Virus record (IMG/VR): IMGVR_UViG_3300030103_005374
Location: 1-21,747 of that record
Length of the DNA: 21,747 nt
Direction: 5' to 3' (one strand)
Origin: a virus
The notes beneath the pieces are model-generated. The model had not been told where the DNA came from. It ran no database searches and saw only the letters and a program-made list of their open reading frames with translations. Position numbers and translations under genes: made by a program. Of the stretch, positions 4,078-18,749 are shown in pieces (positions within the stretch are counted from its first letter, which is position 1; every line of letters begins with the position of its first letter).

Positions 4078-4737
4078 TTATTTTTTATCTATAAGATTAG
4101 AACCCCAATGTCCTCCAGTTCCCTCATCTTCATCGTATATATCTCTAAAAGATCTCCCTTTAGAAATAGTACTTTCGTTTTTTAAATTTGTTATATCTTT
4201 TTCTAAATCTAAAATAGTATTTTTAAGTTTTTTAATCTCTTTTTCTTTTTTATTTATAATACTTTTATTTTTTTTTATCTCTTCATCTTTATTTAAAGTT
4301 TCCGTTGTTTTTATTATATTATCTTTTTCTATTTTGTTTAGATTATTTTTAATATTAATAATATTTTTTTCTTTTTCATTAATAATGTCTTCTAATTTAC
4401 CTATTTTAATACCTAATTCATTTACTTGTTTATCATCTGTAATATAAACATCTTTCTCAATAGTTATTTCTTTAATAACTTCCTTTTCAACCGGTACTTC
4501 AACTAAAACCTCTTTAATAATTTCTACTGGAACTTCTTTCTCTACAACAACTTCCTTAATAACTTCAACAGGAACTTCTTTTTCAACTACTACTTCTTTA
4601 GTGACGGGTGCATTACCATATTTTTCTATATTAAATCCAGTCTTTATATTTTTTAAAATAAAATCGTCTATGTCTTCAATACCATTGAGTTTACAAAATT
4701 CTTTTATTTCGTCTCTTATTTTTTTAGGTATTCTCAT
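4078..4737 (-). CDS. Coiled-coil protein with VPVE-type repeats, between gp47 and gp46
   Basis: Unknown function. The 219 residues have three parts. An N-terminal helical head (1-45, starts MRIPKKIRDEIKEFCKLNGI) looks like a small folded domain. A repeat region (about 47-97) is built of 14-residue units such as KEVVVEKEVPVEVI, strongly alternating hydrophobic and charged. A long Lys/Glu/Asn/Ile-rich coiled coil (about 105-195) ends in a short tail with GTGGHWGSNLIDKK. The start codon overlaps the last base of the gp47 stop codon (TAATG type, shared base 4737), and gp46 follows after 4 nt; this is translational coupling. Position suggests a partner or regulator of the gp46/gp47 nuclease, for example a filamentous adaptor, but nothing in the sequence proves it. 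Confidence 0.85.
   Translation of the reverse strand: MRIPKKIRDEIKEFCKLNGIEDIDDFILKNIKTGFNIEKYGNAPVTKEVVVEKEVPVEVIKEVVVEKEVPVEIIKEVLVEVPVEKEVIKEITIEKDVYITDDKQVNELGIKIGKLEDIINEKEKNIINIKNNLNKIEKDNIIKTTETLNKDEEIKKNKSIINKKEKEIKKLKNTILDLEKDITNLKNESTISKGRSFRDIYDEDEGTGGHWGSNLIDKK
4447..4599 (-). repeat. Imperfect 42-nt coding repeat (14-residue units)
   Basis: Three full units and one partial unit encode KEVVVEKEVPVEVI, KEVVVEKEVPVEII, KEVLVEVPVEKEVI and KEITIEKDV. The protein repeat is much better conserved than the DNA, so selection seems to act on the alternating valine/charge pattern rather than on recent duplication. Confidence 0.85.
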
Positions 4738-5555
4738 TAAGCATTAGTTAGATATTCTTTACCTACTTCTAAATCTTCTAAAGAATTTATTTTAAAAACA
4801 TAATAACCATATTCTGTATCTATATCATGTTCTGTGTAATCTAAATGTTCTACATCCCATATTAAGTAACCATGTTCAGATACTCTCTCACCAAAGTCTT
4901 GTTGGATAAAACTACCACAATATGTTATATTTATACCTTTATGTACAAAATTTTGTCTGTGGTGGATATCACCCATAATAACTGCATCACACCCTTCAAA
5001 CTGTTTTAACTCTGCAGATTCATCAAATTCAAAACCTACTGAAGTTATTGCACCGTTAACTGGTGCATGAAATAAACCAATATATTTCTTGTCATTACCA
5101 TATTCTTTTCTACAAGCATCAATATCCGGTCTAGCGTTTTCTTCAAATATAGAATAACAACACCAAACTATGTTTTCATCTAAATAACACTTACTTTCAG
5201 TCATATAGTTCACATATGGGTTATTCATTATTTCTATTATTGGTGTTAAGGAATCCAACCTATCTTTATTATTTTCCAAAAGATCGTGATTACCCGCAAT
5301 TAAAACCACAGGACATAACTCACTACATTTATTAAGAAACCAAGAAACTAACATTGTTAACTCGTTTGATATAGTAATCTTTTGATGCACTATATCTCCT
5401 GCAATTACTATTCTACATTCTTCAAAAGATAAGTTGTTATCTTCTATATAAAATTTAACTTCATTGAGGAATTTGTTACAGACTTCTTTACATTCATTAT
5501 GTCTATTATAGGTTCTAAAATGTAAATCTGCAATGTGAAATAATTTTTTTATCAT
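4737..5555 (-). CDS. gp47: SbcD/Mre11-like recombination nuclease subunit (T4 gp47 type)
   Basis: Metal-dependent phosphoesterase that forms the recombination nuclease with gp46. In 272 residues the calcineurin-like motifs appear in order: DLH (Asp10, His12), GDIVH (53-57), GNHD (88-91), His163 in LFHAPV, and GDIHHRQ (195-201), which replaces the usual GHIH. All expected metal ligands seem present. The protein is shorter than T4 gp47 (about 339 residues); the C-terminal capping/partner-binding part after about residue 225 is short and ends in EDLEVGKEYLTNA. It is the first gene of a tight operon with the 219-residue coiled-coil protein and gp46, the T4 gene order. A promoter ends 4 nt before its ATG (5560-5591), so the mRNA may be leaderless. 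Confidence 0.95.
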   Translation of the reverse strand: MIKKLFHIADLHFRTYNRHNECKEVCNKFLNEVKFYIEDNNLSFEECRIVIAGDIVHQKITISNELTMLVSWFLNKCSELCPVVLIAGNHDLLENNKDRLDSLTPIIEIMNNPYVNYMTESKCYLDENIVWCCYSIFEENARPDIDACRKEYGNDKKYIGLFHAPVNGAITSVGFEFDESAELKQFEGCDAVIMGDIHHRQNFVHKGINITYCGSFIQQDFGERVSEHGYLIWDVEHLDYTEHDIDTEYGYYVFKINSLEDLEVGKEYLTNA

Positions 5556-5559
5556 ATCT

Positions 5560-5591
5560 TAAATATAATGATTTTTTATTGAAAAGACAAC
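5560..5591 (-). promoter_or_regulatory. Candidate near-leaderless promoter of the gp47-gp46 operon
   Basis: GTTG (5591-5588), exactly 20 nt, TATATTTA (5567-5560), AGAT, then the ATG at 5555. One mismatch in each box to TTTG and TAnnTTTG, but the 20-nt and 4-nt spacings equal those at four other genes in the window. Confidence 0.5.
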
Positions 5592-5595
5592 GCGA

Positions 5596-6129
5596 TTAGG
5601 CAGGAATTAGAGTAGTTAACATATTATCTACATGTTCACTATAATCTGCACATTTGATAACTTTATAATTTGGGTTGTCTTCATTAAACCAAACTAAATT
5701 ACATCTACCTAACTTTAAGTTAGTATTTTTCTCAATTATTTTTTTATAGATATTAAGTTGTAATGAATATGTATTAAATTCACATTTATCTAACATCCAT
5801 AAACACTCCTTCATTTTGTTACCATAATCATCCTTCATATTTAGACGAGTATTAGTCTTCCAATCCCATATCTCTAAAGTACCATATCTTTCATTCCAAA
5901 ATAACTGATCCACCATACCACATAACATATAGTCTTTATCACCAACCACTAACTCTGATTTAATTGGTACTAACTTACCTTTAGCTACTGTATCATTATA
6001 AAAGTTATGGAAATATCCTTCCATAATTTTATATGTTTCTTCTATCTCACTAAAATCCAATCCTTCAGGACTTTTAGTGGGGTAAGGCATTATCTTATTA
6101 TTTAGATAATTCTCAATATAAAGTTGCAT
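5596..6129 (-). CDS. PD-(D/E)XK (RecB-like) nuclease, catalytic C-terminal part in a separate frame
   Basis: Carries the nuclease core. Numbered from the ATG at 6129 (177 residues), the active-site pattern is Glu59 (SELVV), Asp74 (GMVDQL), EIWDWKT with Asp89-X-Lys91, and QLNIY (Gln124, Tyr128), the QxxxY motif of RecB/Cas4-type nucleases. The frame is open upstream to 6261, but that extension looks like the shadow of the N-terminal half in the other frame, so it is not used. The ATG at 6129 lies 17 nt inside the end of the upstream frame. Either a formerly single nuclease is now made as two coupled polypeptides, or one frame change (programmed, mutational or an assembly error) joins them. Likely role is DNA-end processing or degradation; it is followed 40 nt later by gp47. 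Confidence 0.7.
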   Translation of the reverse strand: MQLYIENYLNNKIMPYPTKSPEGLDFSEIEETYKIMEGYFHNFYNDTVAKGKLVPIKSELVVGDKDYMLCGMVDQLFWNERYGTLEIWDWKTNTRLNMKDDYGNKMKECLWMLDKCEFNTYSLQLNIYKKIIEKNTNLKLGRCNLVWFNEDNPNYKVIKCADYSEHVDNMLTTLIPA

Positions 6130-6469
6130 GATTGTTTTTATACTTCCATAACTTTTTGATGTCTTCTTCACTAGTACATTCCTCTGATGGTTTTGGTTTA
6201 GAGTAATCAGGTCTATCATACGGATCACCTTCCATAGGATAAAAGTTTTGTTTATGTGCAAACTTATCTGCCATACTTTTAGCCTTATATATATGTCCTT
6301 GTTTTTCTGCCCATTTATCTGGTTTATCTACATTAGATTCAAAGTCTTCTTCAAACTTATGAATGAAACCAGTACAGGATATTGTTTTCTCTCCATCAAT
6401 ATAATACGTATGAGGTTCGTCATAATATTTTATATTGTTGAATACGGATAATTCTTTAATAATCTCCAT
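6113..6469 (-). CDS. PD-(D/E)XK nuclease, N-terminal part (frame broken at 3' end)
   Basis: 118 residues from the ATG at 6469. The pattern HTYYIDGEKTISCTGFI (20-36) and the following Phe/Glu-rich helix match the usual beginning of phage RecB-like exonucleases (H.Y..dg..l.SvT.l...f). The frame ends in IKKLWKYKNNHATLY, just where the family normally has a Gly-Thr...His...Ile-Glu helix before the catalytic core; the continuation (LYIENYLNN) is in the frame of the gene at 5596-6129. The open frame extends up to 6502, but the promoter at 6490-6521 places the transcription start near 6484, so the ATG at 6469 is preferred. With the second part the product would be about 290 residues, a normal length for this family. 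Confidence 0.7.
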   Translation of the reverse strand: MEIIKELSVFNNIKYYDEPHTYYIDGEKTISCTGFIHKFEEDFESNVDKPDKWAEKQGHIYKAKSMADKFAHKQNFYPMEGDPYDRPDYSKPKPSEECTSEEDIKKLWKYKNNHATLY

Positions 6470-6489
6470 TTTTTGTATATTTATTATTA

Positions 6490-6521
6490 CAAAGATAAGC
6501 ATTTATTTTTAAAAAAACAAA
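6490..6521 (-). promoter_or_regulatory. Bacteroidota-type promoter of the split nuclease gene
   Basis: TTTG (6521-6518), 20 nt, TATCTTTG (6497-6490), both boxes perfect matches. The leader to the ATG at 6469 would be about 15 nt. The upstream box overlaps the start codon of the divergent plus-strand gene by one base, so activity of this promoter and initiation of the plus-strand gene may interfere. Confidence 0.65.
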
Positions 6522-8419
6522 TGGAATTAAAAGACATTATAAGAAATACTACTGATACCCAACCGTTCAATAATTTTGAGATTGCAGTATTAAGAGAAAT
6601 ATATAGAACTTTGGATGGTAGAGTAAAAAGTAATAAAAAAACTGATATTAACCTTTTAATGGATTCTAATATAATAGGTAACTTAGCATTAGATAAGGAT
6701 ATACTTATGTATTTTTATGCTTTATATAAAAATAATTTATTCAATGTTTTAAATAAAGATGGTGATTTTGCTTCTATAGAAGAAGTAGTTGTACCACAAA
6801 TGAAAGAGTATCAAATTAAATTTTATCAAAACGTAAATTCTTGGAGAGAAATCAAAAATACTGTCGTGTCAGATGATAGTGATACTGCCCTAGACGCAAT
6901 GGATTGGGAATACGATTATGGTAATATGGTGAATCCAGAATTAACAACTCACATAGATGATGAAATACATCAAGGAGATTATGATGAGGTTTTTGATACA
7001 GATGCAGATGTATTACGAACTTTAAATGAAAGTATTAAGAATATATTAAGAGAGGAACTGAATACTGAAAAAGAACCGGTAATTTTTATTGCAGGTTGTT
7101 CTTCTGCAGGTGAATGTGGTAAAAAATATAAGTATTCACACCAACAACAAGGTAATATGTTACAGACTGCTTTAGGTGATAATTTTAATGTAATAACCCT
7201 ATCACATGTACCCTCACCTTTATCAGAAATAAAAAAACATAATAATCCTTATGTAGTTATGTTTAGTGCTGGTGGTAAACACTCAGATAGGGTGGCAAAC
7301 GAAATAAACAATAGCGAAAAAGACTTAAATAAAATTTATATTGTTGAGCCTTATACTTGTGGTTCAAACACTCTAAAAAAAGTTAACTCCGCAATAACTA
7401 CGATAGGGAGTAATAATAATGTCTATGGTGGAACATCAAATTGTACAGGTAAAAATGTTGCGGGTAAAATAGATAGTGAAAGTAATCACTGGAGTGCCTT
7501 AACTACTGTTGGTAATGATATTAAAAAGACATATATACCCCCTATACCCCCTATTTCTACAAACCCCACATTAGATATTAATATACCAAATACAAACATT
7601 CCTATGGATAATACTTATGTGGCACCACCTTATTTAGGTATATACGAATCTAAAAAAAGAAAAATAAAAATTAGTGAGAGTCAATTATCCAAAATTGAGG
7701 AAGATTTAAAATACTGGAGTGTTAGTGATGCAAACCCAAACAAAAACAAATATGAAATGGGTGTGGAGTTAGAAGAAGAGGTAACTAGTATTCCAATATA
7801 TAAAGATAATAATCCCCATAAAAGAGTGTATGAAAAAATGAGAAGAGAGTTTCCTGATACACCAGAATATGTTTTACAAGATTATTACAGAAATATCATA
7901 CTAATGAGAGCACCAGGTCATCGTCCAGCGATGAAAGATATTTTAAACACTTATAATGGTGATCCAATACCATATATTAAGGGTGATGGAAATGGGTGGT
8001 GGTATAACTATTTAAAAGGTCCGTGGAAGTTACAAGTTTTAAACGTAAACCCAATGGACTTTGATAAACGTACAGTAAGAGCGTTTGAACAAAGAGATTT
8101 TGGTAATATAAATGCATACAACGTACCCAAAGATGAAGAACGAATGGACACTCAAATGAGTATGAGGAGAGATGATGGAATGAACGAACCAGTTATTATT
8201 CTACAAAATCCTGATGGTACTTATCAATTAATAGAAGGGTGGCATAGAACAATGTCTATATTAAAAATGGGTGATAAACCTACTGAAGATTATTATGATG
8301 AAGATGATTACAATGATGAATTGTGGGACGAAGAAACACCTACTGAGTTAAAAGATTGGGATAAAGTTAAACTCAGAGCATTTGTTGCACCAAATCCAGA
8401 CTTTAAAGAAAAAAAGTGA
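6521..8419 (+). CDS. Multidomain protein: possible serine-hydrolase domain plus ParB-like GWHR domain
   Basis: 632 residues; the only plus-strand gene. A TTG start at 6473 is possible, but the ATG at 6521 gives the more natural N-terminus MELKDIIRNT. Residues 1-180 are helical and acidic. Residues about 186-330 look like a small alpha/beta hydrolase: strand PVIFIAGC, strand VVMFSAGGKHS with candidate nucleophile Ser249, strand IYIVEPYT with a candidate acid (Glu276), and SNHW with candidate His323, in the order of that fold. A Pro/Asn-rich linker follows, then KRKIKISESQLSKI (379-392), then about 430-625, where NEPVIILQNPDG and LIEGWHRTMSIL resemble the ParB/sulfiredoxin fold with its GxHR motif (GWHR 573-576). 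Neither activity is certain. It is flanked by a divergent promoter and converges on tRNA-Arg, its stop codon lying inside the tRNA gene. A weak promoter-like TATATTTA is at 6476-6483. A host-modifying accessory gene is plausible. Confidence 0.8.
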   Translation: MELKDIIRNTTDTQPFNNFEIAVLREIYRTLDGRVKSNKKTDINLLMDSNIIGNLALDKDILMYFYALYKNNLFNVLNKDGDFASIEEVVVPQMKEYQIKFYQNVNSWREIKNTVVSDDSDTALDAMDWEYDYGNMVNPELTTHIDDEIHQGDYDEVFDTDADVLRTLNESIKNILREELNTEKEPVIFIAGCSSAGECGKKYKYSHQQQGNMLQTALGDNFNVITLSHVPSPLSEIKKHNNPYVVMFSAGGKHSDRVANEINNSEKDLNKIYIVEPYTCGSNTLKKVNSAITTIGSNNNVYGGTSNCTGKNVAGKIDSESNHWSALTTVGNDIKKTYIPPIPPISTNPTLDINIPNTNIPMDNTYVAPPYLGIYESKKRKIKISESQLSKIEEDLKYWSVSDANPNKNKYEMGVELEEEVTSIPIYKDNNPHKRVYEKMRREFPDTPEYVLQDYYRNIILMRAPGHRPAMKDILNTYNGDPIPYIKGDGNGWWYNYLKGPWKLQVLNVNPMDFDKRTVRAFEQRDFGNINAYNVPKDEERMDTQMSMRRDDGMNEPVIILQNPDGTYQLIEGWHRTMSILKMGDKPTEDYYDEDDYNDELWDEETPTELKDWDKVKLRAFVAPNPDFKEKK

Positions 8420-8490
8420 ACCGGGGAGGATTCGAACCTCCGACCGTCTGCTTAGAAGGCAGATGCTCTATCCAGCTGAGCTACCGGTCC
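8417..8490 (-). tRNA. trnR(ucu): tRNA-Arg (anticodon UCU)
   Basis: The minus strand folds as a full cloverleaf: acceptor GGACCGG with CCGGTTC (one G-U pair), D-stem GCTC/GAGC, anticodon stem TCTGC/GCAGA with loop CTTCTAA (anticodon TCT, reads AGA), T-stem GGAGG/CCTCC with loop TTCGAAT, discriminator A. CCA is not encoded. Seven T follow soon after the 3' end and may help termination. AGA is a common codon in this AT-rich genome. The 3' end overlaps the stop codon (TGA 8417-8419) of the convergent plus-strand gene. Confidence 0.97.
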
Positions 8491-8496
8491 AATATG

Positions 8497-8580
8497 TACT
8501 CGAAGCGGGAATCGAACCCGCACTCCCAAATGGGAACAAGATTTTAAGTCTTGCGTGTCTACCTATTCCACCACTCGAGC
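8497..8580 (-). tRNA. trnL(uaa): tRNA-Leu (anticodon UAA)
   Basis: Cloverleaf with long variable arm: acceptor GCTCGAG with TTCGAGT (G-U at the first and last pair), anticodon stem CAAGA/TCTTG with loop CTTAAAA (anticodon TAA, reads TTA), variable arm TTCCCATTTGGGAGT, T-stem GCGGG/CCCGC, discriminator A. CCA is not encoded. TTA is the dominant Leu codon here. It lies 6 nt before tRNA-Arg and is probably cotranscribed with it and with the 54-codon gene that runs into its 5' end. Confidence 0.97.
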
Positions 8581-8727
8581 ATCGAGTATGTTATTAAAAT
8601 ATTCAATAACATATTTAGCATATGAAGTGAGAACATCTCTACCTTCAAATACAAACATTTCTTTACCTTTAATTACTGCATCTTTATACTGTAATTTAAA
8701 CTTATCTATATTTTCTAAACTAATCAT
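8563..8727 (-). CDS. Small acidic/aromatic protein (54 residues) running into tRNA-Leu
   Basis: The ATG at 8727 opens MISLENIDKFKLQYKDAVIK and the frame ends with a TAG at 8563-8565; the last codons (from Ala49, ARVVE, plus the stop) are the first 18 nt of the tRNA-Leu gene. No known domain; predicted soluble and helical, with YAKYVIEYFNNI as an amphipathic segment. The main support is the near-perfect promoter that ends 4 nt before the ATG. A transcript from it would pass through this frame and both tRNAs, so the frame may serve as a leader for tRNA expression. A possible alternative is a non-coding leader. Confidence 0.6.
   Translation of the reverse strand: MISLENIDKFKLQYKDAVIKGKEMFVFEGRDVLTSYAKYVIEYFNNILDARVVE
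8587..8613 (-). other. Perfect 9-bp hairpin just upstream of tRNA-Leu
   Basis: TATGTTATT, a 9-nt loop and AATAACATA form a perfect inverted repeat inside the 54-codon gene, ending 6 nt before the 5' end of the tRNA. It contains only two G-C pairs, so stability is modest. It could be chance in AT-rich coding DNA or a processing/regulatory structure in the pre-tRNA. Confidence 0.4.
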
Positions 8728-8731
8728 ACCT

Positions 8732-8763
8732 CAAATATAGTAATAATTTTTTACTAAAACAAA
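8732..8763 (-). promoter_or_regulatory. Near-leaderless promoter of the 54-codon gene and tRNA genes
   Basis: TTTG (8763-8760), exactly 20 nt, TATATTTG (8739-8732), AGGT, then the ATG at 8727. Both boxes match the Bacteroidota consensus perfectly. The distance puts the likely transcription start at or within about 3 nt of the start codon. Confidence 0.75.
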
Positions 8764-8952
8764 TTAATTGTAAGTTTTTGATATTACATCTAAAAATAAA
8801 TCCGTATAAGAGTCCACTTTATTAGGGAAATTACGTTTCATACGTTTTGCCCAATCTTGTGCCCACTCATAGGCGTGTTCTTTTTGTTTTTCCGTTATAC
8901 AACTATTAACAACTTTATTAACATAATTAAACTGTTCTCTTAAATTTAACAT
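8764..8952 (-). CDS. Small soluble protein (62 residues), unknown function
   Basis: MLNLREQFNYVNKVVNSCIT, followed by an Ala/Trp/Lys-rich helix (EHAYEWAQDWAKRMKRNF) and a short C-terminal helix. No membrane segment and no recognised domain; predicted all-alpha with mixed charge. It starts 6 nt after the stop of the 50-codon gene and lacks the promoter motif of its own, so the two are likely one transcript. Its stop is next to the TTTG box of the promoter at 8732-8763. Confidence 0.7.
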   Translation of the reverse strand: MLNLREQFNYVNKVVNSCITEKQKEHAYEWAQDWAKRMKRNFPNKVDSYTDLFLDVISKTYN

Positions 8953-8958
8953 ATTTTA

Positions 8959-9111
8959 TTATTTAAAAATTATAGTATATAATATTGAATGTATCCCTTT
9001 TAAATGAACGGGATCTATTAACAATCTAATTTTCTTCATTAGTCTATACCTTTTTATTAATCTAAACTTATTAGTTGTGTGATATTCCTCTATTATGTTT
9101 TGTAATTCCAT
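8959..9111 (-). CDS. Small basic protein (50 residues), unknown function
   Basis: Frame from the ATG at 9111 (MELQNIIEEYHTTNKFRLIK) to a TAA at 8959-8961. The centre is strongly basic (KRYRLMKKIRLL), followed by DPVHLKGIHSILYTIIFK, so it may bind nucleic acid or a membrane. Support comes from compact packing (6 nt before the next gene, 23 nt after the previous stop) and from a promoter with the same TTTG-20-TAnnTTTA-4-ATG layout as its neighbours. An alternative is an untranslated leader for the 62-residue gene. Confidence 0.6.
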   Translation of the reverse strand: MELQNIIEEYHTTNKFRLIKRYRLMKKIRLLIDPVHLKGIHSILYTIIFK

Positions 9112-9115
9112 ATTG

Positions 9116-9147
9116 TAAAAATAAAAAAAATATTTTACTTTACCAAA
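9116..9147 (-). promoter_or_regulatory. Near-leaderless promoter of the 50-codon gene
   Basis: TTTG (9147-9144), exactly 20 nt, TATTTTTA (9123-9116), CAAT, then the ATG at 9111. One mismatch to TAnnTTTG. The upstream box lies inside the last codons of the cREC gene. Confidence 0.6.
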
Positions 9148-9530
9148 TGTTTTTTAAAATTTTCTAAATATTTTTTTATATTTTCTGCACCCACAGGATT
9201 TGCAGAATGTACCAAATAAAATGGTATATCTTTACCTTCATCTAAACAATATTCACACAACCATCTACAAGCATCATATCCCGTTTTTTCTTTAAGACTA
9301 CCATAATTAATATCACCCTTTTGATTTTCTGGTAAATATGCATCATACGACAAATCATGATCGAAAGATATGTGAGTTGGTAAACCAAATTTATTAATTG
9401 CGGAGATAAACTGATAATAATCTCTCACTATAACCCAATCGTTATCACTTTCATATAATGGATTAACTGTTAATTTAAATACACAATAAGGGGTCCTGAT
9501 ATCATCGAGAAATAGTTTATAATTTTTCAT
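9135..9530 (-). CDS. Cyclic-phosphate processing receiver-like (cREC) domain protein
   Basis: 131 residues that make up a single receiver-like domain. Diagnostic segments: YKLFLDDIRTP (4-14, acidic pair Asp9/Asp10), IVRDYYQFI (34-42), HISFDHDLS (53-61), KTGYDACRWL (82-91) and HSANPVG (108-114). Together these fit the cREC family, which comparative genomics links to processing of cyclic phosphates, possibly in RNA repair; the activity is a prediction for the family, not proven here. Its position close to two tRNA genes and small unknown genes would fit tRNA or RNA end repair during a host anti-phage response, but no ligase or kinase is in the window. A promoter with a 4-nt distance to the ATG (9535-9566) indicates its own near-leaderless transcript. 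Confidence 0.8.
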   Translation of the reverse strand: MKNYKLFLDDIRTPYCVFKLTVNPLYESDNDWVIVRDYYQFISAINKFGLPTHISFDHDLSYDAYLPENQKGDINYGSLKEKTGYDACRWLCEYCLDEGKDIPFYLVHSANPVGAENIKKYLENFKKHLVK

Positions 9531-9534
9531 ATCA

Positions 9535-9566
9535 TAAATGTACGAAAAAATTTTAACTATAACAAA
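9535..9566 (-). promoter_or_regulatory. Near-leaderless promoter of the cREC gene
   Basis: TTTG (9566-9563), exactly 20 nt, TACATTTA (9542-9535), TGAT, then the ATG at 9530. One mismatch to the -7 consensus; spacing identical to the other sites. Confidence 0.62.
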
Positions 9567-9593
9567 AAAAAATAAGAAATAATAAGGTTAATT

Positions 9594-10538
9594 TTAGGAC
9601 ATAGGTGAAAATATTTTATTTAAAAAAAGACCCGCTGGTTTGGTCCTACGGTATGCCCTCCAATAAGCTTTTTTATCTTCTTCATCCTCAGAATTTTTCC
9701 AATCGTCAATTGTATTATATTTTTTAGATATATTTATTAGATCTTCCTCAGTATCCAAATAGTTTTTATGATGTTTCATATGAGAAGTTACATCTTCCCA
9801 AAATTCTTTACCTCTTTTATATGCCTGCCAGTAAGTAAGTCTATCATCATTTTTCCACTCTGTCTTAGTTTTATATTTTAAAGCAATTTTTCTTAGAGTG
9901 TCGTCTGAGTTTAAATACTTCATACCTAAAGCACCTGTTTTAGCAATATTTAAAATTTGCCAACCATTATTCATATACTCAGTCTCATAAAAAGACTCTA
10001 ATTCTTTAGCCTCTTTAAACCCAACTTTTTCTGGTGTAAGTTTTTTAAGTTTAAGACGTAGTTGTGGGTTACTTTCTAAAAACTTACCTACTGCGGTTTT
10101 TTCTTGTTTTTTGCTATAAGAACAACTATCTGTTGTGTGTTCCAAATGTCTTCTATCAATATCACAAGACAACCCTATATATGCTGCTTTTGGTTTATCA
10201 CCATCCGCATCAGTAAATTCATAAACATATATATCTTTTTCACCAAACCAACCAGCAGGTTCCATATCAGAAGTTAATTCTCGCCAAAATTTATTTCCCT
10301 CACCCTCATTATCTGTGTTCATAACCTTTACCCTATTCTTTGCTGCAAAATAACTATTTTTATCTACACTATTTAACCATTCTTTTATAGTTCGATATTT
10401 TTTTGCTATCTTAATTAATTCGTCATTGGTGTACTTAACCTTTCTTCCAATTTTGTGAAATCTTGAACTTAATCTCCTATCATAAGACTCTCTTTCTTTA
10501 ATTTTTTTAAATTGGTTTTCAGTTATAATAATCTTCAT
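9594..10538 (-). CDS. GIY-YIG endonuclease with flanking repeat modules
   Basis: 314 residues. The catalytic domain lies at about 100-206: IYVYEF, AYIGLS (119-124), DRRHLEH with Arg129/Arg130 and His134, an acidic helix ELESFYETEYM with the likely catalytic Glu, then GWQILN and KTGALG. It is bracketed by short modules with the pattern KKYxTxxEW...Y..A: KKYRTIKEWLN (46-56), LKYKTKTEWKN (220-230) and KKYNTIDDWKN (272-282), the second ending in FWEDVTSHM. The modules probably bind DNA, as in phage-encoded GIY-YIG enzymes. The N-terminus MKIIITENQFKKIKERE resembles a segment of the plus-strand protein at 6521-8419. The third module is cut short. It starts 36 nt after the primase stop and lacks a clear promoter of its own. 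It may be a free-standing mobile endonuclease or a host/competitor DNA-cutting enzyme. Confidence 0.85.
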   Translation of the reverse strand: MKIIITENQFKKIKERESYDRRLSSRFHKIGRKVKYTNDELIKIAKKYRTIKEWLNSVDKNSYFAAKNRVKVMNTDNEGEGNKFWRELTSDMEPAGWFGEKDIYVYEFTDADGDKPKAAYIGLSCDIDRRHLEHTTDSCSYSKKQEKTAVGKFLESNPQLRLKLKKLTPEKVGFKEAKELESFYETEYMNNGWQILNIAKTGALGMKYLNSDDTLRKIALKYKTKTEWKNDDRLTYWQAYKRGKEFWEDVTSHMKHHKNYLDTEEDLINISKKYNTIDDWKNSEDEEDKKAYWRAYRRTKPAGLFLNKIFSPMS

Positions 10539-10574
10539 AATTATAAATATTTTGTCAAACCAAAAAAAAACATA

Positions 10575-11522
10575 TTATAATAAACTTTCTTTTATACGTT
10601 TTGCGGTAGTAATTAATTTAATTACACCCTTACTACCTAATTTTTGGTGTACGTCTGATAAATCAAATCGTTTAGGCATATATACCATTAGTACCCTTCC
10701 ATTCAATTTAGTACTATCTAATTTTTTATATAGGTTAATTGCGTCTTTTTCTGCATCGTTGTCTAAAACTATTATGACTTTGGCGGAAGCATTATCTATT
10801 AATTTTTTAAATAACAAATCATTTAGTACTTTACCCAACATAGGAATACTATTTGGTAGGGTGATATGATCGAATACACCTTCTACTAAATAAATGTTAG
10901 AATCCCAATTAATTTTTCCTTCATTAAATATAATATCCATTTTAGATACTTCAGGATTTTTATACTTTAGTTTAGTGTATTTTTCAAAACTCCTACCTAA
11001 AAAATAATTTATCTTACCTTCACTGTCATATGATGGAAATATAATTCTATTTCTGTAATCTCCTACGTTAGCGTAACCTAAATTATATTTTTTAATTAAG
11101 TCTATCCCTATATTTCTTTTACTAAGATATTGTAGTGCTTGTTGATACCCACTATCATTCCTTTCTATAGTTAGTGGTGTAAAATTTTTAGGTAATCCCG
11201 TTATAACCACCTTTTCTTTGTCTACTACAACCCTTTTATTATCAGGTATTACTAACTGATATTGTTTCATATGGTTTTTATTACCATACTTCCTAATAAG
11301 TTTATTAAGTGTCCCATGTGTACCATAGGTTTCTGAACAAGCCCAACATTTATAAACATGATGATAGTAATTAACTTCTAAATTACCTTTACCATCTCCA
11401 CAGTCTAGTCCTTTAATTGATGAACATACAGGACAGTCAAAAGATATCTGACTTTTGTTTTCATAATGTTTTTTAGAATTACCTAATACATCTTCTAAGA
11501 TTTCTACAACTAATTGTGACAT
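10575..11522 (-). CDS. dnaG: DnaG-type DNA primase
   Basis: Makes RNA primers at the replication fork. In 315 residues there is an N-terminal zinc ribbon (Cys30, Cys33, Cys59, Cys62: CPVC and CWAC), a linker/RNA-polymerase region with RNRIIFPSYDSEGKI, and a TOPRIM domain with VEGVFD (Glu214) and VLDNDAEKD (Asp254, Asp256). It lacks the C-terminal helicase-binding domain of bacterial DnaG and is close in length to phage primases such as T4 gp61 (about 342). A perfect promoter ends 4 nt before the ATG, so it starts its own transcript; the upstream RuvC-like gene ends 36 nt earlier. Confidence 0.93.
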   Translation of the reverse strand: MSQLVVEILEDVLGNSKKHYENKSQISFDCPVCSSIKGLDCGDGKGNLEVNYYHHVYKCWACSETYGTHGTLNKLIRKYGNKNHMKQYQLVIPDNKRVVVDKEKVVITGLPKNFTPLTIERNDSGYQQALQYLSKRNIGIDLIKKYNLGYANVGDYRNRIIFPSYDSEGKINYFLGRSFEKYTKLKYKNPEVSKMDIIFNEGKINWDSNIYLVEGVFDHITLPNSIPMLGKVLNDLLFKKLIDNASAKVIIVLDNDAEKDAINLYKKLDSTKLNGRVLMVYMPKRFDLSDVHQKLGSKGVIKLITTAKRIKESLL

Positions 11523-11526
11523 TTCA

Positions 11527-11558
11527 CAAATATATGAATTTTATTTTAAAAATCCAAA
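11527..11558 (-). promoter_or_regulatory. Near-leaderless promoter of the primase gene
   Basis: TTTG (11558-11555), exactly 20 nt, TATATTTG (11534-11527), TGAA, then the ATG at 11522. Both boxes match the consensus perfectly. The TTTG box directly follows the stop codon of the RuvC-like gene (11559), so the whole intergenic space is promoter. Confidence 0.75.
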
Positions 11559-15788: not shown

Positions 15789-18713
15789 TTAATAAATATT
15801 TCCTCTATTTGTGACAATTTCTATAGGAATTGTCGTACTATAGGTAACACTTGTTATTATTTCCCCAACAATAGGTGTATATAATTTTTGGTTTTTAACT
15901 CTATAAATTAATTTATCACCAGCAACCGCTTCACTTAAATCAATAATCAAAGAATAATTATTTTGTCCTAATACATAAGGTGTAGATGCAATATATTTTA
16001 CGTCCTTAAAATCTTCGTCACTTACATCTGTAACTTCTATAGTAAATAATCCTTCTTGACATATTGTAGGTGCATTAGGTATTACCCAAGATAACTCAGG
16101 TTTATTTGTTTCCACACTTCCAAATACACCACTAATAGGATTAAAAAACACTTGAATTAAATCACCTTTTTTAATTTCTACTAAAATTATTAGTCTTCTA
16201 GGATCTGTATCTGATCTCATATACTCTATATTATATGAAAGTTGGTTACCATTTAAAGTTAACCCTACATCACCTATTGCATCAACCGGTAAATAATACT
16301 CATATGTTTGTTGAGTAGTATTATAATATAATTTATCTTCTTTCCCTTGTTGTCCTGTAGGTCCTGAAGAAATAGGTTCAGTTACGGTATAATTATCAAT
16401 TGATAATTCATTTGGATTACCGTCCTCCACAAATGCTAACGTAACCATTCTATCTGCTAATGTTGGTGTAAAAAAGTCTATATAAAATGCATTAGGTGTG
16501 TCTGTATTAGCACTATATTCAACCCCTTTTGATTGAATTACCCCATTATAAGACACTAAGGGATCTGATAAAGAGTTATAAAAAAATCTAGTGTCTCCAG
16601 ATTCAGTTTTAAATGAAGTTACTCTTAAATTACTGATGGTATTAGGTTCTCCTGGCTCATTAATGAAGGTTGGTTCGTCCGCTTCAAAAAGATTTAAAAA
16701 GTACCAATCTGTTTCGGGATTATATAAATTATATTCCGTACCTCTTTTATAGTTATTAACACTATTTCTTCTTCTACCTAATTCTTTTTGTATTAATGTT
16801 TTAATCGGATAATCAAAATATCCTTTTATTATAAATTCCCCCTCATCTATTTCATTTAAAGGTATTGTTAATGTAGTACCACTTTCTCCACTAAATAAAG
16901 TATAATCAAAATCCTCTACTAAAACGGGATTATCATTAAATACACCTCTCTCACAATCAAAAGAATAAATTTCTGCAGTGAAATTCAATTTATTTGGTTG
17001 TATGACATTTGAAACGTCATTTAATATTAAGTCAAACTCAAAAGGAGTTCTATCACGATCACTTATATAAACATATCTATCACAAGATAATGTCTTACTA
17101 GTTATAACATTTGGTAATCCCCATGTGGACGTAATACCTGTACTGATACCTGTTAATGAAAACCCTTCTTCTTCAAAATTACATTGTACCCCTAATCCGT
17201 TAGGTCTATGTATAATGTGTAAAAAATCTTTTAGATAATCAGCAACATATATTTTTTCATCAGGACCCATTTGTAACGCACCTAAACTAGCAGTAATAGG
17301 TAAGTCAGCCACAATAATACTATTATCTACCATTTCAGTAGAAGAAGTGTAAGTTAAATCATATTGTATTATTTTATTAGATGCACCATCACTTACATAG
17401 AATTTAGAAGAATCGGATGAAAATTCTAAACCATAAGGTCCGTTTATAAAAAATGTGTCACCACTTATTAATAACTCATTAGACAATGTACCACCTGTAT
17501 TATTAAAATCTAATACTTGAATTAGGTTCTCATCATAAAATAGTGAAACTAATTTACTACTATCTGGTGACGTTTTCATATACCCCCTATTAGTATTATA
17601 TGTAGTACCTGTATCACTTATTACTGCAGATGCTATACCACCACTCTTTACCCTAAACGAATAAAATTTAGAATCTCCACTAGTGTGTGTTATAACCCAA
17701 TAATCAGTTTCATTAAAATGAGAACAAGCGGTAACTTTTTCACAAATAGGGGTACTAATTAAAGGCATATTTTTAAAAATAATTTTACCATCTCCACCTG
17801 CCCTATTCATATCCACTAAACTATATTCAAAACCATTAGGGTTACCTTCAAAGTCAGTAGTAAATATATAATACTCATTACTATTTGGTCGAGGTACGAT
17901 TATACTAGATTGGGTAGAAGTACCTGAACTTCTCAAATTAGCCCCTTGTTGCATAATAGTATTAGCACTAGTAAAAACTGTTTCACCATCAGTATAAAAT
18001 AATAAATTACCTTCTTGATTAGATATACTACTACATCCTTCTTGTGATACTACTGCACCACTTATCACAACAGGTGTTGCCCCACTTTTTATGGGATCGA
18101 AACTTATACCAGCTCTCTGCCCAAACAACCAATTATAATTTAATCTATCATAAGTATATTCATTATTATCAAAAGTTACTGGACCACATAGTGTGTCATT
18201 ACTACCGGAAATAGGTATTTTTCGTGTTCCTCTAGGTGTAAATTGTGGATAATCAAAACCATAAACATCTGATCTTTCTTCATGTGAATACTTATCTTCA
18301 TTACTTACAGGCTCCCAACCTAAATAAATCTTTTTTTCACTTATTGCACCATAATGTTCATAAGTTTTACCACCATCTATATATTGCATAGGGATATTTG
18401 CAAAAATTTCTTTATCAATTAAATTTTCATCTTCATCTAATTCGTAATTAAAAAAACATAATTTGTTAATAGGTGCATCAGTTAAGGCGGTATTACCCAT
18501 ACTTTGTGGTACGGGCTTAAATATTAAATTTTTAACCTGTGAAAGATCATCCATAAAATATGCCCTATTAACTGTAAATAATGAAGGGGATAAAGAACTA
18601 GCTAGATAGTTAATATTTAAATTAATATCTACTTCAGTTCTAACCTCGTTTTCGGTTACTACTTTACCATTAACACTAATTGGGTTTATTATATTTGCCT
18701 TTATATTCGCCAT
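15789..18713 (-). CDS. Fibre/adhesin protein with a Bacteroidota gliding-type beta-propeller
   Basis: 974 residues, beta-rich, without signal peptide. Residues 1 to about 190 are a unique N-terminal region (MANIKANIINPISVNGK), probably for virion attachment. About 194-538 is a propeller domain matching, in order, the conserved blocks of the N-terminal domain in secreted Bacteroidota gliding/type IX secretion proteins: NWLFG, GNLLFYTDG, STQSSIIVPRP, YYIFTTD, EKVTAC, DYWVITH, GPDEKIYVA and GLPNVI. It is followed by beta domains, including two copies of a module with NG-x7-EY spacing (about 722-760 and 820-857). No C-terminal type IX sorting domain is present, in line with intracellular assembly into a virion. 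Transcribed with the neighbouring structural genes. Likely role: contact with the host surface; what it binds is unknown. Confidence 0.85.
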   Translation of the reverse strand: MANIKANIINPISVNGKVVTENEVRTEVDINLNINYLASSLSPSLFTVNRAYFMDDLSQVKNLIFKPVPQSMGNTALTDAPINKLCFFNYELDEDENLIDKEIFANIPMQYIDGGKTYEHYGAISEKKIYLGWEPVSNEDKYSHEERSDVYGFDYPQFTPRGTRKIPISGSNDTLCGPVTFDNNEYTYDRLNYNWLFGQRAGISFDPIKSGATPVVISGAVVSQEGCSSISNQEGNLLFYTDGETVFTSANTIMQQGANLRSSGTSTQSSIIVPRPNSNEYYIFTTDFEGNPNGFEYSLVDMNRAGGDGKIIFKNMPLISTPICEKVTACSHFNETDYWVITHTSGDSKFYSFRVKSGGIASAVISDTGTTYNTNRGYMKTSPDSSKLVSLFYDENLIQVLDFNNTGGTLSNELLISGDTFFINGPYGLEFSSDSSKFYVSDGASNKIIQYDLTYTSSTEMVDNSIIVADLPITASLGALQMGPDEKIYVADYLKDFLHIIHRPNGLGVQCNFEEEGFSLTGISTGITSTWGLPNVITSKTLSCDRYVYISDRDRTPFEFDLILNDVSNVIQPNKLNFTAEIYSFDCERGVFNDNPVLVEDFDYTLFSGESGTTLTIPLNEIDEGEFIIKGYFDYPIKTLIQKELGRRRNSVNNYKRGTEYNLYNPETDWYFLNLFEADEPTFINEPGEPNTISNLRVTSFKTESGDTRFFYNSLSDPLVSYNGVIQSKGVEYSANTDTPNAFYIDFFTPTLADRMVTLAFVEDGNPNELSIDNYTVTEPISSGPTGQQGKEDKLYYNTTQQTYEYYLPVDAIGDVGLTLNGNQLSYNIEYMRSDTDPRRLIILVEIKKGDLIQVFFNPISGVFGSVETNKPELSWVIPNAPTICQEGLFTIEVTDVSDEDFKDVKYIASTPYVLGQNNYSLIIDLSEAVAGDKLIYRVKNQKLYTPIVGEIITSVTYSTTIPIEIVTNRGNIY
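17100..18134 (-). other. Segment encoding the gliding-type beta-propeller
   Basis: Covers the part of the fibre gene from NWLFG to GLPNVI. The base composition is like the rest of the gene, so if acquired from a host it has been adapted to the phage for a long time. Confidence 0.7.
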
Positions 18714-18749
18714 TATTTATAAATATATTTTATTTTATAGTTTTTTATT

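Follow-up and report, generated by a model that had tools for sequence, protein, structure and literature searches.

The stretch of DNA analysed here (the window) is the viral record IMGVR_UViG_3300030103_005374 of IMG/VR (G000; 21,747 nt, 29% GC), and all features described below lie on its minus strand. The genes of interest encode an SbcD/gp47-like phosphoesterase (4737-5555; PHROG 100, Pfam Metallophos), two small products without Pfam matches, of 54 aa (8563-8727, the 3' end of the ORF overlapping a tRNA-Leu gene) and 50 aa (8959-9111), a 131-aa protein (9135-9530) with a cyclic-phosphate processing receiver domain (cREC_REC; Pfam PF20274, E 1.8e-22; PHROG 1479, unknown function), and a DNA primase (10575-11522; PHROG 47, Pfam DNAG_N). 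A sigma-70-family factor is encoded at 295-1110, with Pfam regions 1.2, 2, and 4 above cut-off and region 3 below.

Promoter-start units in the window

An earlier note on this DNA had described TTTG (once GTTG), 20 nt, a -7-like box, and 4 nt ahead of the ATG at five starts, and a scripted check of the window found the shared pattern, (T/G)TTG-N20-TAnnTTT(G/A)-N4-ATG, to be exact at all five. The unit of the gp47/SbcD-like gene (5553-5591; GTTG 5588-5591, -7 box 5560-5567, ATG 5553-5555) reads GTTG-N20-TATATTTA-AGAT-ATG, that of the 54-aa gene (8725-8763; TTTG 8760-8763, -7 box 8732-8739, ATG 8725-8727) TTTG-N20-TATATTTG-AGGT-ATG, and that of the 50-aa gene (9109-9147; TTTG 9144-9147, -7 box 9116-9123, ATG 9109-9111) TTTG-N20-TATTTTTA-CAAT-ATG. 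Upstream of the 131-aa gene (9528-9566; TTTG 9563-9566, -7 box 9535-9542, ATG 9528-9530) it reads TTTG-N20-TACATTTA-TGAT-ATG, and upstream of the primase gene (11520-11558; TTTG 11555-11558, -7 box 11527-11534, ATG 11520-11522) TTTG-N20-TATATTTG-TGAA-ATG. The -33 element is thus TTTG at four sites and GTTG at one, with a spacer of 20 nt throughout, inside the range of about 17-23 nt given in the earlier note, while the -7 element is TAnnTTT at every site with a final G in two and a final A in three. The -33 box at 9144-9147 sits inside the upstream 131-aa gene. At all five sites the TA of the -7 box occupies positions -12/-11, as in TA-led genes, whose box lies about 12 nt upstream (PMC3160421).

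A sixth promoter, TTTG-N20-TATCTTTG (6490-6521), is leadered, lying 20 nt ahead of the exonuclease-region ATG at 6469; even within the window, abutment is not universal for this promoter type. The abutting share is 5/6 by hand, the mechanical count of 5/5 having omitted this leadered promoter.

Excess over chance and gap distribution

Five related phage records, with 519 called genes and 774 candidate ATGs, have TTTG-N20-TANNTTTR-N4-ATG in front of 14 genes, whereas 100 shuffles gave a mean of 0.02 and never more than 1, so that the scan of genome and relatives proposed earlier yielded a clear enrichment of the N20/N4 spacing. In 13 records the pattern occurs at 46 places (often one gene counted in several near-identical contigs), versus none for the pattern read backwards. 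When the gap between -7 box and start codon is tallied by family (seven records, 351 families), 10 families have a gap of 4, five a gap of 5, three a gap of 6, and none a gap of 7-9. In the same seven records a -7 box at gap 4-5 precedes 33/88 gene-start ATGs versus 6/220 other ATGs (Fisher p 6e-15, orthologs counted apart). A second set, 80 primase loci that partly overlap the seven records, gives 47/95 versus 5/114, and 26 of these 47 cases belong to genes other than primase. Because relatives are not independent samples, p values of this kind are too small.

It is extremely unlikely that the units are chance alignments in AT-rich DNA, or a translational signal (for ribosomal protein S1, or simply A/U-rich) that resembles a -7 box. 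The low GC content of the record favours such a reading, as does the count of the bare consensus TTTG-N18..22-TANNTTTR, which in the window stays at chance level (6 observed versus 4.63 expected in shuffles). AT-richness is nevertheless ruled out by the shuffles (14 versus 0.02) and by the contrast between gene-start and other ATGs, and a translational signal leaves unexplained why, among 26 primase upstream regions with TANNTTT at gap 4, 22 have TTG at the single spacing of 20. Of the two fixed distances only N4 is special, N20 being ordinary: promoters of the same type cluster at a spacer of 20 in Flavobacterium phage immuto and crAss001. Spacer rigidity was accordingly dropped as a novelty, since immuto, PTm1, and crAss001 likewise cluster at 19-20.

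Conservation in relatives and choice of start codon

A survey of 62 distinct primase upstream regions in IMG/VR, in which only ATG and GTG starts were considered, found the full promoter at gap 3-6 in 31 (27 at exactly 4; GTG start at gap 4 in eight), and the unit is kept down to 46% protein identity. Another 20 regions show no more than a loosely defined box at gap 3-6, a weak criterion that lacked a control and was left out of the counts; seven have gap 7-8, which by the Flavobacterium johnsoniae offset would leave roughly 2-4 nt of leader; three have a leadered full promoter; and one (L183) has neither, its -7 box standing at gap 16 without a -33 box. The spacers of regions with TANNTTT at gap 4 share a mean identity of 47%, versus 36% when shuffled, and TA occurs at -12/-11 in 30 of 53 distinct regions, the top position among 31 offsets. 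Of 11 distinct gp47 loci, 10 keep the gap of 4, and in relative G010 the gene is leadered (gap 16). The unit of the 131-aa gene recurs in G010 (spacer 21, gap 4); in G005, G007, and G009 the gene lacks a separate promoter and overlaps the primase gene.

At each of the five sites in the window an in-frame stop lies 6-60 nt upstream of the ATG, with no ATG/GTG/TTG codon between the two. That the called ATGs are wrong, with true starts downstream and ordinary leaders on the mRNAs, is very unlikely and has been largely refuted, even though start choice was mechanical. A second in-frame Met comes 67, 23, 24, and 84 codons further on in four of the ORFs and is absent from the 131-aa ORF; judged by eye, residues from codon 2 onwards are conserved despite silent substitutions, to identities as low as 62%; and the match begins at residue 1 in 10 of 11 gp47 loci and in most primase loci. 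Among ORFs of at least 60 codons that open at gap 4, 38 start with ATG and nine with GTG (two families, eight of the nine in primase), with no TTG or CTG; TTG counts at larger gaps stem mostly from internal codons, in frame, of those ORFs, and only the absence at gap 4 is used here. This restriction matches the mycobacterial rule (PMC4633059) by which leaderless genes begin with ATG or GTG and not with TTG or CTG.

A different objection accepts the promoters as real but holds that longer read-through mRNAs are the main source of protein, that transcripts from the abutting promoter are 5'-truncated or heterogeneous and contribute little to translation, and that the closeness of box and start reflects no more than intergenic compaction. 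We consider this improbable. Intergenic distances are indeed shorter in abutting families (median 42 nt in 15 families versus 67 nt in 25 leadered ones), a -33 box may overlap the upstream ORF, as at 9144-9147, and the seven primase regions at gap 7-8 point the same way. On the other hand, intergenic space amounts to 66-159 nt in five of the 15 abutting families, and compaction ought to fill gaps 7-9 as well, where the seven records have no case. The occurrence of GTG but not TTG or CTG at gap 4 also points to use as a first codon, although a polymerase preference for a purine at +1 would have the same effect. A Kozak-like A at -3 is present in 0.40 of the 15 abutting families versus 0.64 of the 25 leadered ones, numbers that are small, with -6 falling inside the box, so the difference is given no weight here.

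Abutting shares were counted as distinct genes with one pipeline for relatives and named phages. In G005, the largest relative, the promoter abuts the start in 13 of the 28 genes with such a promoter; smaller relatives give 13/26 (G004), 6/12 (G009), 5/14 (G007), 1/5 (G010), and 1/2 (G008). The G005 share exceeds the 4/65 of immuto, PTm1, and crAss001 combined (p 1.6e-5) and the 9/84 of all five named phages (p 1e-4), both p values being made too small by kinship. Other phages are not sharply set apart, since Cellulophaga phage phi14:2 (3/6) and Mel-JY01 (2/13) also have abutting promoters.

A leaderless reading and its context

In F. johnsoniae the transcription start lies 4 or 5 nt downstream of the -7 box (PMC6847099). 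Given this offset and the phage gap of 4-5, the phage mRNAs should start at the A of the ATG. The proposal of the earlier note that these mRNAs are leaderless is supported by this agreement as well as by the lack of a gap peak at other ATGs, the persistence of the geometry in diverged relatives, and the GTG but not TTG or CTG starts at gap 4. Its idea of a leaderless class stands in a broader form, extending beyond five genes to the phage lineage and accompanied by a second motif, TATTTAT. Taken together, the five sites are very probably Bacteroidota-type sigma-A promoters whose transcription start coincides with the start codon, yielding leaderless mRNAs of a lineage-wide class.

Under this leaderless reading, a sigma-A promoter (TTTG / TAnnTTTG, spacer 20) would fire at the first base of the start codon, and the ribosome would enter the mRNA at its 5'-terminal AUG, or GUG in some relatives. 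The abutting class would serve several small genes and some of those for replication and recombination (primase, gp47, a DNA-binding protein, a DNA methyltransferase), with other genes using promoters of this type at least 10 nt further upstream or the TATTTAT motif. Two advantages may follow: a full promoter packed into 36 nt ahead of the start, and a bypass of leader features otherwise needed for initiation in a phylum without Shine-Dalgarno signals.

TATTTAT is promoter-like and likewise divides into abutting and leadered subclasses. In the window it occurs at 10543-10549 (gap 4 to the ATG at 10538 of a 314-aa gene) and at 18719-18725 (gap 5 to the ATG at 18713 of a 974-aa gene), and one gene (G005 155086) carries both a leadered host-type promoter and an abutting TATTTAT promoter. 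The late promoter of phage T4, TATAAATA, is similarly an AT-only box near phage genes, relative to which TATTTAT is reversed. The phage sigma-70-family factor possibly reads one of the promoter classes. That it defines the abutting class is unsupported: G010 has the sigma factor, yet only one of its five promoters abuts, and immuto is enriched in TATTTAT, yet has no match to the phage sigma (E 0.01) or to PHROG 1190. We tentatively suggest a dual leaderless programme, in which sigma-A promoters (early/middle) and phage-specific TATTTAT promoters (later) each have an abutting subclass, and genes such as G005 155086 might pass from leadered to leaderless during infection. If so, their protein would possibly stay translatable when leader-dependent initiation is impaired.

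Judging from promoter type, these phages probably infect Bacteroidota, in which initiation does not rely on Shine-Dalgarno pairing. By primase, immuto is one of the closest named relatives (33% identity). The only relative among genome contigs is part of a Prochlorococcus single-cell genome and matches IMG/VR record G007 in length and range. Published Bacteroidota sigma-A promoters share the boxes and spacer found here, but host promoters are mostly leadered: 87% have leaders longer than 10 nt in F. johnsoniae (PMC6847099), and leaderless or very short leaders make up 5.5% (leaderless) in F. psychrophilum and about 3.7% (<10 nt) in B. thetaiotaomicron (PMC9723704, PMC7366714). These transcriptomes thus span 3.7-13%, against the 13/28 abutting in G005, a figure from a sequence pipeline rather than from transcripts.

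Leaderless mRNAs themselves are already known; a literature search, which took in few subscription journals and no bioRxiv preprints, found no comparable phage lineage. The leaderless genes of lambda, P2, and Tn1721 in E. coli (PMC4633059; lambda also PMC3160421) are, like those considered here, phage or mobile-element mRNAs starting at AUG, but they are few and isolated, whereas here many families in one lineage share a conserved geometry in a phylum without Shine-Dalgarno use. In TA-led leaderless genes of Actinobacteria and Deinococcus-Thermus a -10-like box likewise stands some 12 nt ahead of the start codon, but the sigma consensus differs, and such genes were detected in one of 37 Bacteroidetes/Chlorobi genomes (PMC3160421).

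The geometry gives a simple means of verifying start codons and promoters in phages of this lineage. Leaderless mRNAs are rare in the three mapped Bacteroidota transcriptomes, whereas up to half of the recognisable promoters of the sigma-A type in this phage lineage abut a start. That share, and a primase unit kept to about half protein identity, suggest that host ribosomes handle leaderless mRNA well, and the phage units, with leadered orthologs as matched controls, would provide natural leaderless starts for studying those ribosomes.

Promoter-start codon units in the window

The window spans positions 1-21,747 of the IMG/VR virus record G000 (47,545 bases, 29% GC), and the window's genes include phage-family matches to SbcC/gp46, SbcD/gp47, an exonuclease, a primase, RuvC, and a sigma-70 factor. 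Five rigid promoter-start codon units had been claimed in the earlier note, and all proved exact: on the minus strand, (T/G)TTG, 20 nt, TAnnTTT(G/A), and 4 nt precede the ATG of gp47 (5555), a 54-aa gene (8727), a 50-aa gene (9111), a 131-aa gene (9530), and the primase gene (11522). In each of these ORFs the ATG is the earliest usable start past the preceding in-frame stop.

Several features of the surrounding genes were also recorded. The 131-aa protein (9135-9530) has a match to the cyclic-phosphate processing receiver domain cREC_REC; given that such domains are found in conflict systems, a role in counter-defence is conceivable. Behind the 54-aa gene lie tRNA-Arg(tct) and tRNA-Leu(taa) (8416-8580), the latter overlapped by the 3' end of the gene, and the promoter of this gene (8732-8763) may also drive transcription of both tRNAs. 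The exonuclease region (5596-6502) is covered by one ORF at 6113-6502 and another, overlapping it in a different frame, at 5596-6261, where the related phage record G005 has a single 309-aa ORF (134386-135315); the split may represent a frame break, sequencing error, or programmed shift. A 314-aa gene (9594-10538; PHROG 20046, without Pfam match) lies between the primase and 131-aa genes, which overlap in the related records G005, G007, and G009, and it looks like an insertion bringing its own TATTTAT-N4-ATG.

Spacing, start codons, and predicted transcription start

In the window, the promoter consensus alone occurs at chance level (6 found, 4.63 expected). The N20/N4 spacing, which according to the earlier note should exceed shuffled sequence, did so clearly: TTTG-N20-TANNTTTR-N4-ATG precedes 14 of the 519 genes called mechanically in five records (774 candidate ATGs), against a mean of 0.02 and a maximum of 1 in 100 shuffles. 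A scan of 13 records, which include many near-identical contigs, gave 46 occurrences of the unit pattern and none of the backwards-read pattern; in three of these records the unit had no match. When the gap between the -7 box and the start codon was tabulated for TTG-N19..21-TANNTTTR in seven records, gene-start ATGs numbered 22 at gap 4, 11 at gap 5, 3 at gap 6, and zero at gaps 7-9, and non-start ATGs had no peak over gaps 0-45. Gaps 4-5 accounted for 33/88 start ATGs and 6/220 other ATGs (p 6e-15, a value that is too small because orthologs of related records were counted apart); by protein family (351 overall), gaps 4, 5, and 6 were found in 10, 5, and 3 families, respectively.

Among ORFs of at least 60 codons opening at gap 4 after TTG-N20-TANNTTTR (seven records plus 80 primase loci, the best 80 of 561), ATG was the start in 38, GTG in 9, and TTG or CTG in none; the GTG cases belong to two families, and eight are primases. 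A mycobacterial study describes leaderless initiation as served by ATG and GTG, not by CTG or TTG (PMC4633059), and the counts therefore agree with an mRNA whose 5' end is the start codon. A purine preference of RNA polymerase at +1 would give the same ATG/GTG-only pattern, and would likewise mean that +1 falls on the first base of the codon. In Flavobacterium johnsoniae, many -7 elements are described as lying 4 or 5 nt from the transcription start (T-12 to G-5; PMC6847099), so that a gap of 4 or 5 would place the start at the A of ATG or one base before.

Abutting promoters among phages and conservation of the unit

Figures given for Bacteroidota hosts include a leader of more than 10 nt in 87% of F. 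johnsoniae mRNAs with a probable promoter (PMC6847099), 5.5% leaderless in F. psychrophilum (PMC9723704), approximately 3.7% of 5' UTRs below 10 nt in B. thetaiotaomicron (PMC7366714), and, among 37 Bacteroidetes/Chlorobi genomes surveyed, a single one in which TA-led leaderless genes were detected (PMC3160421); these are survey figures or derive from mapped transcription starts, not from the gap pipeline applied to phages. In that pipeline, genes with a recognised promoter (TTG-N19..21-TANNTTTR at gap 0-45) form the denominator, and promoters at gap 3-6 are termed abutting. Abutting shares in related phage records were 13/28 (G005), 13/26 (G004), 6/12 (G009), and 5/14 (G007), with small counts in G010 (1/5) and G008 (1/2). 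G000 gave 5/5, or 5/6 when a leadered promoter overlooked by the gene call (6490-6521) is counted. The same pipeline returned 2/31 for immuto, 2/24 for PTm1, 0/10 for crAss001, 2/13 for Mel-JY01, and 3/6 for phi14:2; the G005 share differs from the first three combined (4/65, p 1.6e-5) and from all five (9/84, p 1e-4).

Conservation was followed at the primase gene by scanning IMG/VR with a seven-primase alignment and keeping as a sample the best 80 of 561 confirmed loci, to which all primase figures here refer. The sample gave 62 distinct upstream regions. A full promoter lies at gap 3-6 in 31 of them (exactly 4 in 27), at gap 7-8 in 7, and at a gap of at least 10 in 3; another 20 show no more than a loose box at gap 3-6, and the remaining one has neither. 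Primase identity to that of the window runs from 100 down to 46% over the 31 full-promoter loci, eight of which start with GTG. A narrower start rule kept 53 regions and left 7 loci without a start; five of the eight GTG loci (L141, L149, L153, L170, L191) had no ATG by this rule. TANNTTT stands at gap 4 in 26/53, with TTG exactly 20 nt upstream in 22 and 19 nt in 2, and the 22 N20 spacers share a mean identity of 47%, compared with 36% when shuffled.

Beyond the primase, gp47 has the gap-4 unit in 10 of 11 distinct loci, those ten being 74-100% and the eleventh 35% identical to the window protein; as an exception, the G010 copy of gp47 is leadered, at gap 16. For the 131-aa gene, the unit is present in the window and G010 and absent from G005, G007, and G009, where the gene overlaps that of the primase. 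In distant relatives, abutting promoters near the primase precede gp47 and a protein starting like MAKIKKW. The exonuclease-region promoter (6490-6521 in the window) is leadered in all seven relatives listed, and thus both layouts are kept, gene by gene. Ten G005 proteins were scanned, nine behind abutting host-type promoters and the tenth at 155086; genes after abutting host-type promoters include a PHROG 624 DNA-binding protein, a DNA methyltransferase, and a Nudix-like protein, and among the ten, six small proteins had no PHROG match and one matched a family of unknown function.

A second motif, host questions, and proposed mechanism

TATTTAT (aTATTTATaaatAAA) dominates upstream regions in G005, where it is the top enriched upstream 7-mer (60/200 genes, 6.2 expected), and in G010. 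The motif was noted in upstream regions of G005, G004, G009, G007, and G010 and in the window, which has boxes at 10543-10549 and 18719-18725. The box differs from TAnnTTTG in having T two bases ahead in just 26% of 50 sites. It falls into two subclasses, one abutting at gap 4-6 and one leadered at gap 12-21: of 215 gene-start ATGs, 44 lie at gap 4-6, 4 at 8-11, and 90 at 12-21, compared with 32, 43, and 104 of 501 other ATGs. Per family, gaps 4, 5, and 6 gave 12, 12, and 8, against approximately 1 each in shuffles. Of ten abutting TATTTAT genes scanned, eight had no match; the other two were a baseplate wedge subunit and a gene matching a family of unknown function. At G005 155086 the two promoter types occur together, host-type at gap 23 and TATTTAT at gap 4. 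TATTTAT is a candidate phage-specific late promoter, and its class would also be partly leaderless if transcription starts 4-6 nt past the box. The motif is enriched in Flavobacterium phage immuto as well (34/222 genes, 4.0 expected); in Tenacibaculum phage PTm1 (NC_049340.1) the strongest upstream 7-mer is ATACATA (42/305 genes, 4.0 expected), another candidate phage promoter.

Microcystis phage Mel-JY01 (PP395634.1) carries Bacteroidota-type TTG-N19..21-TAnnTTT(G/A) promoters (e.g. 129081-129880, 143155, 69524), at gap 31-45 in 10 genes against 0.3 in shuffles; its host may therefore be a Bacteroidota from the culture, though recorded as Microcystis. A contig of the same length as L050/G007 (83,794 bases), with Bacteroidota-type promoters, is filed under Prochlorococcus single-cell genome AG-409-L21, and is perhaps a co-sorted virus.

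Most likely, the host's RNA polymerase, carrying its primary sigma factor, would initiate on the first base (A or G) of the start codon, and the ribosome would then bind the 5'-terminal AUG or GUG. Leaderless genes are already described for phages lambda and P2 (PMC4633059), but a conserved class of predicted leaderless genes across a phage lineage with this promoter type appears to be new within the literature searched. For such phages, we infer, the advantage would be space saved and freedom from leader structure.
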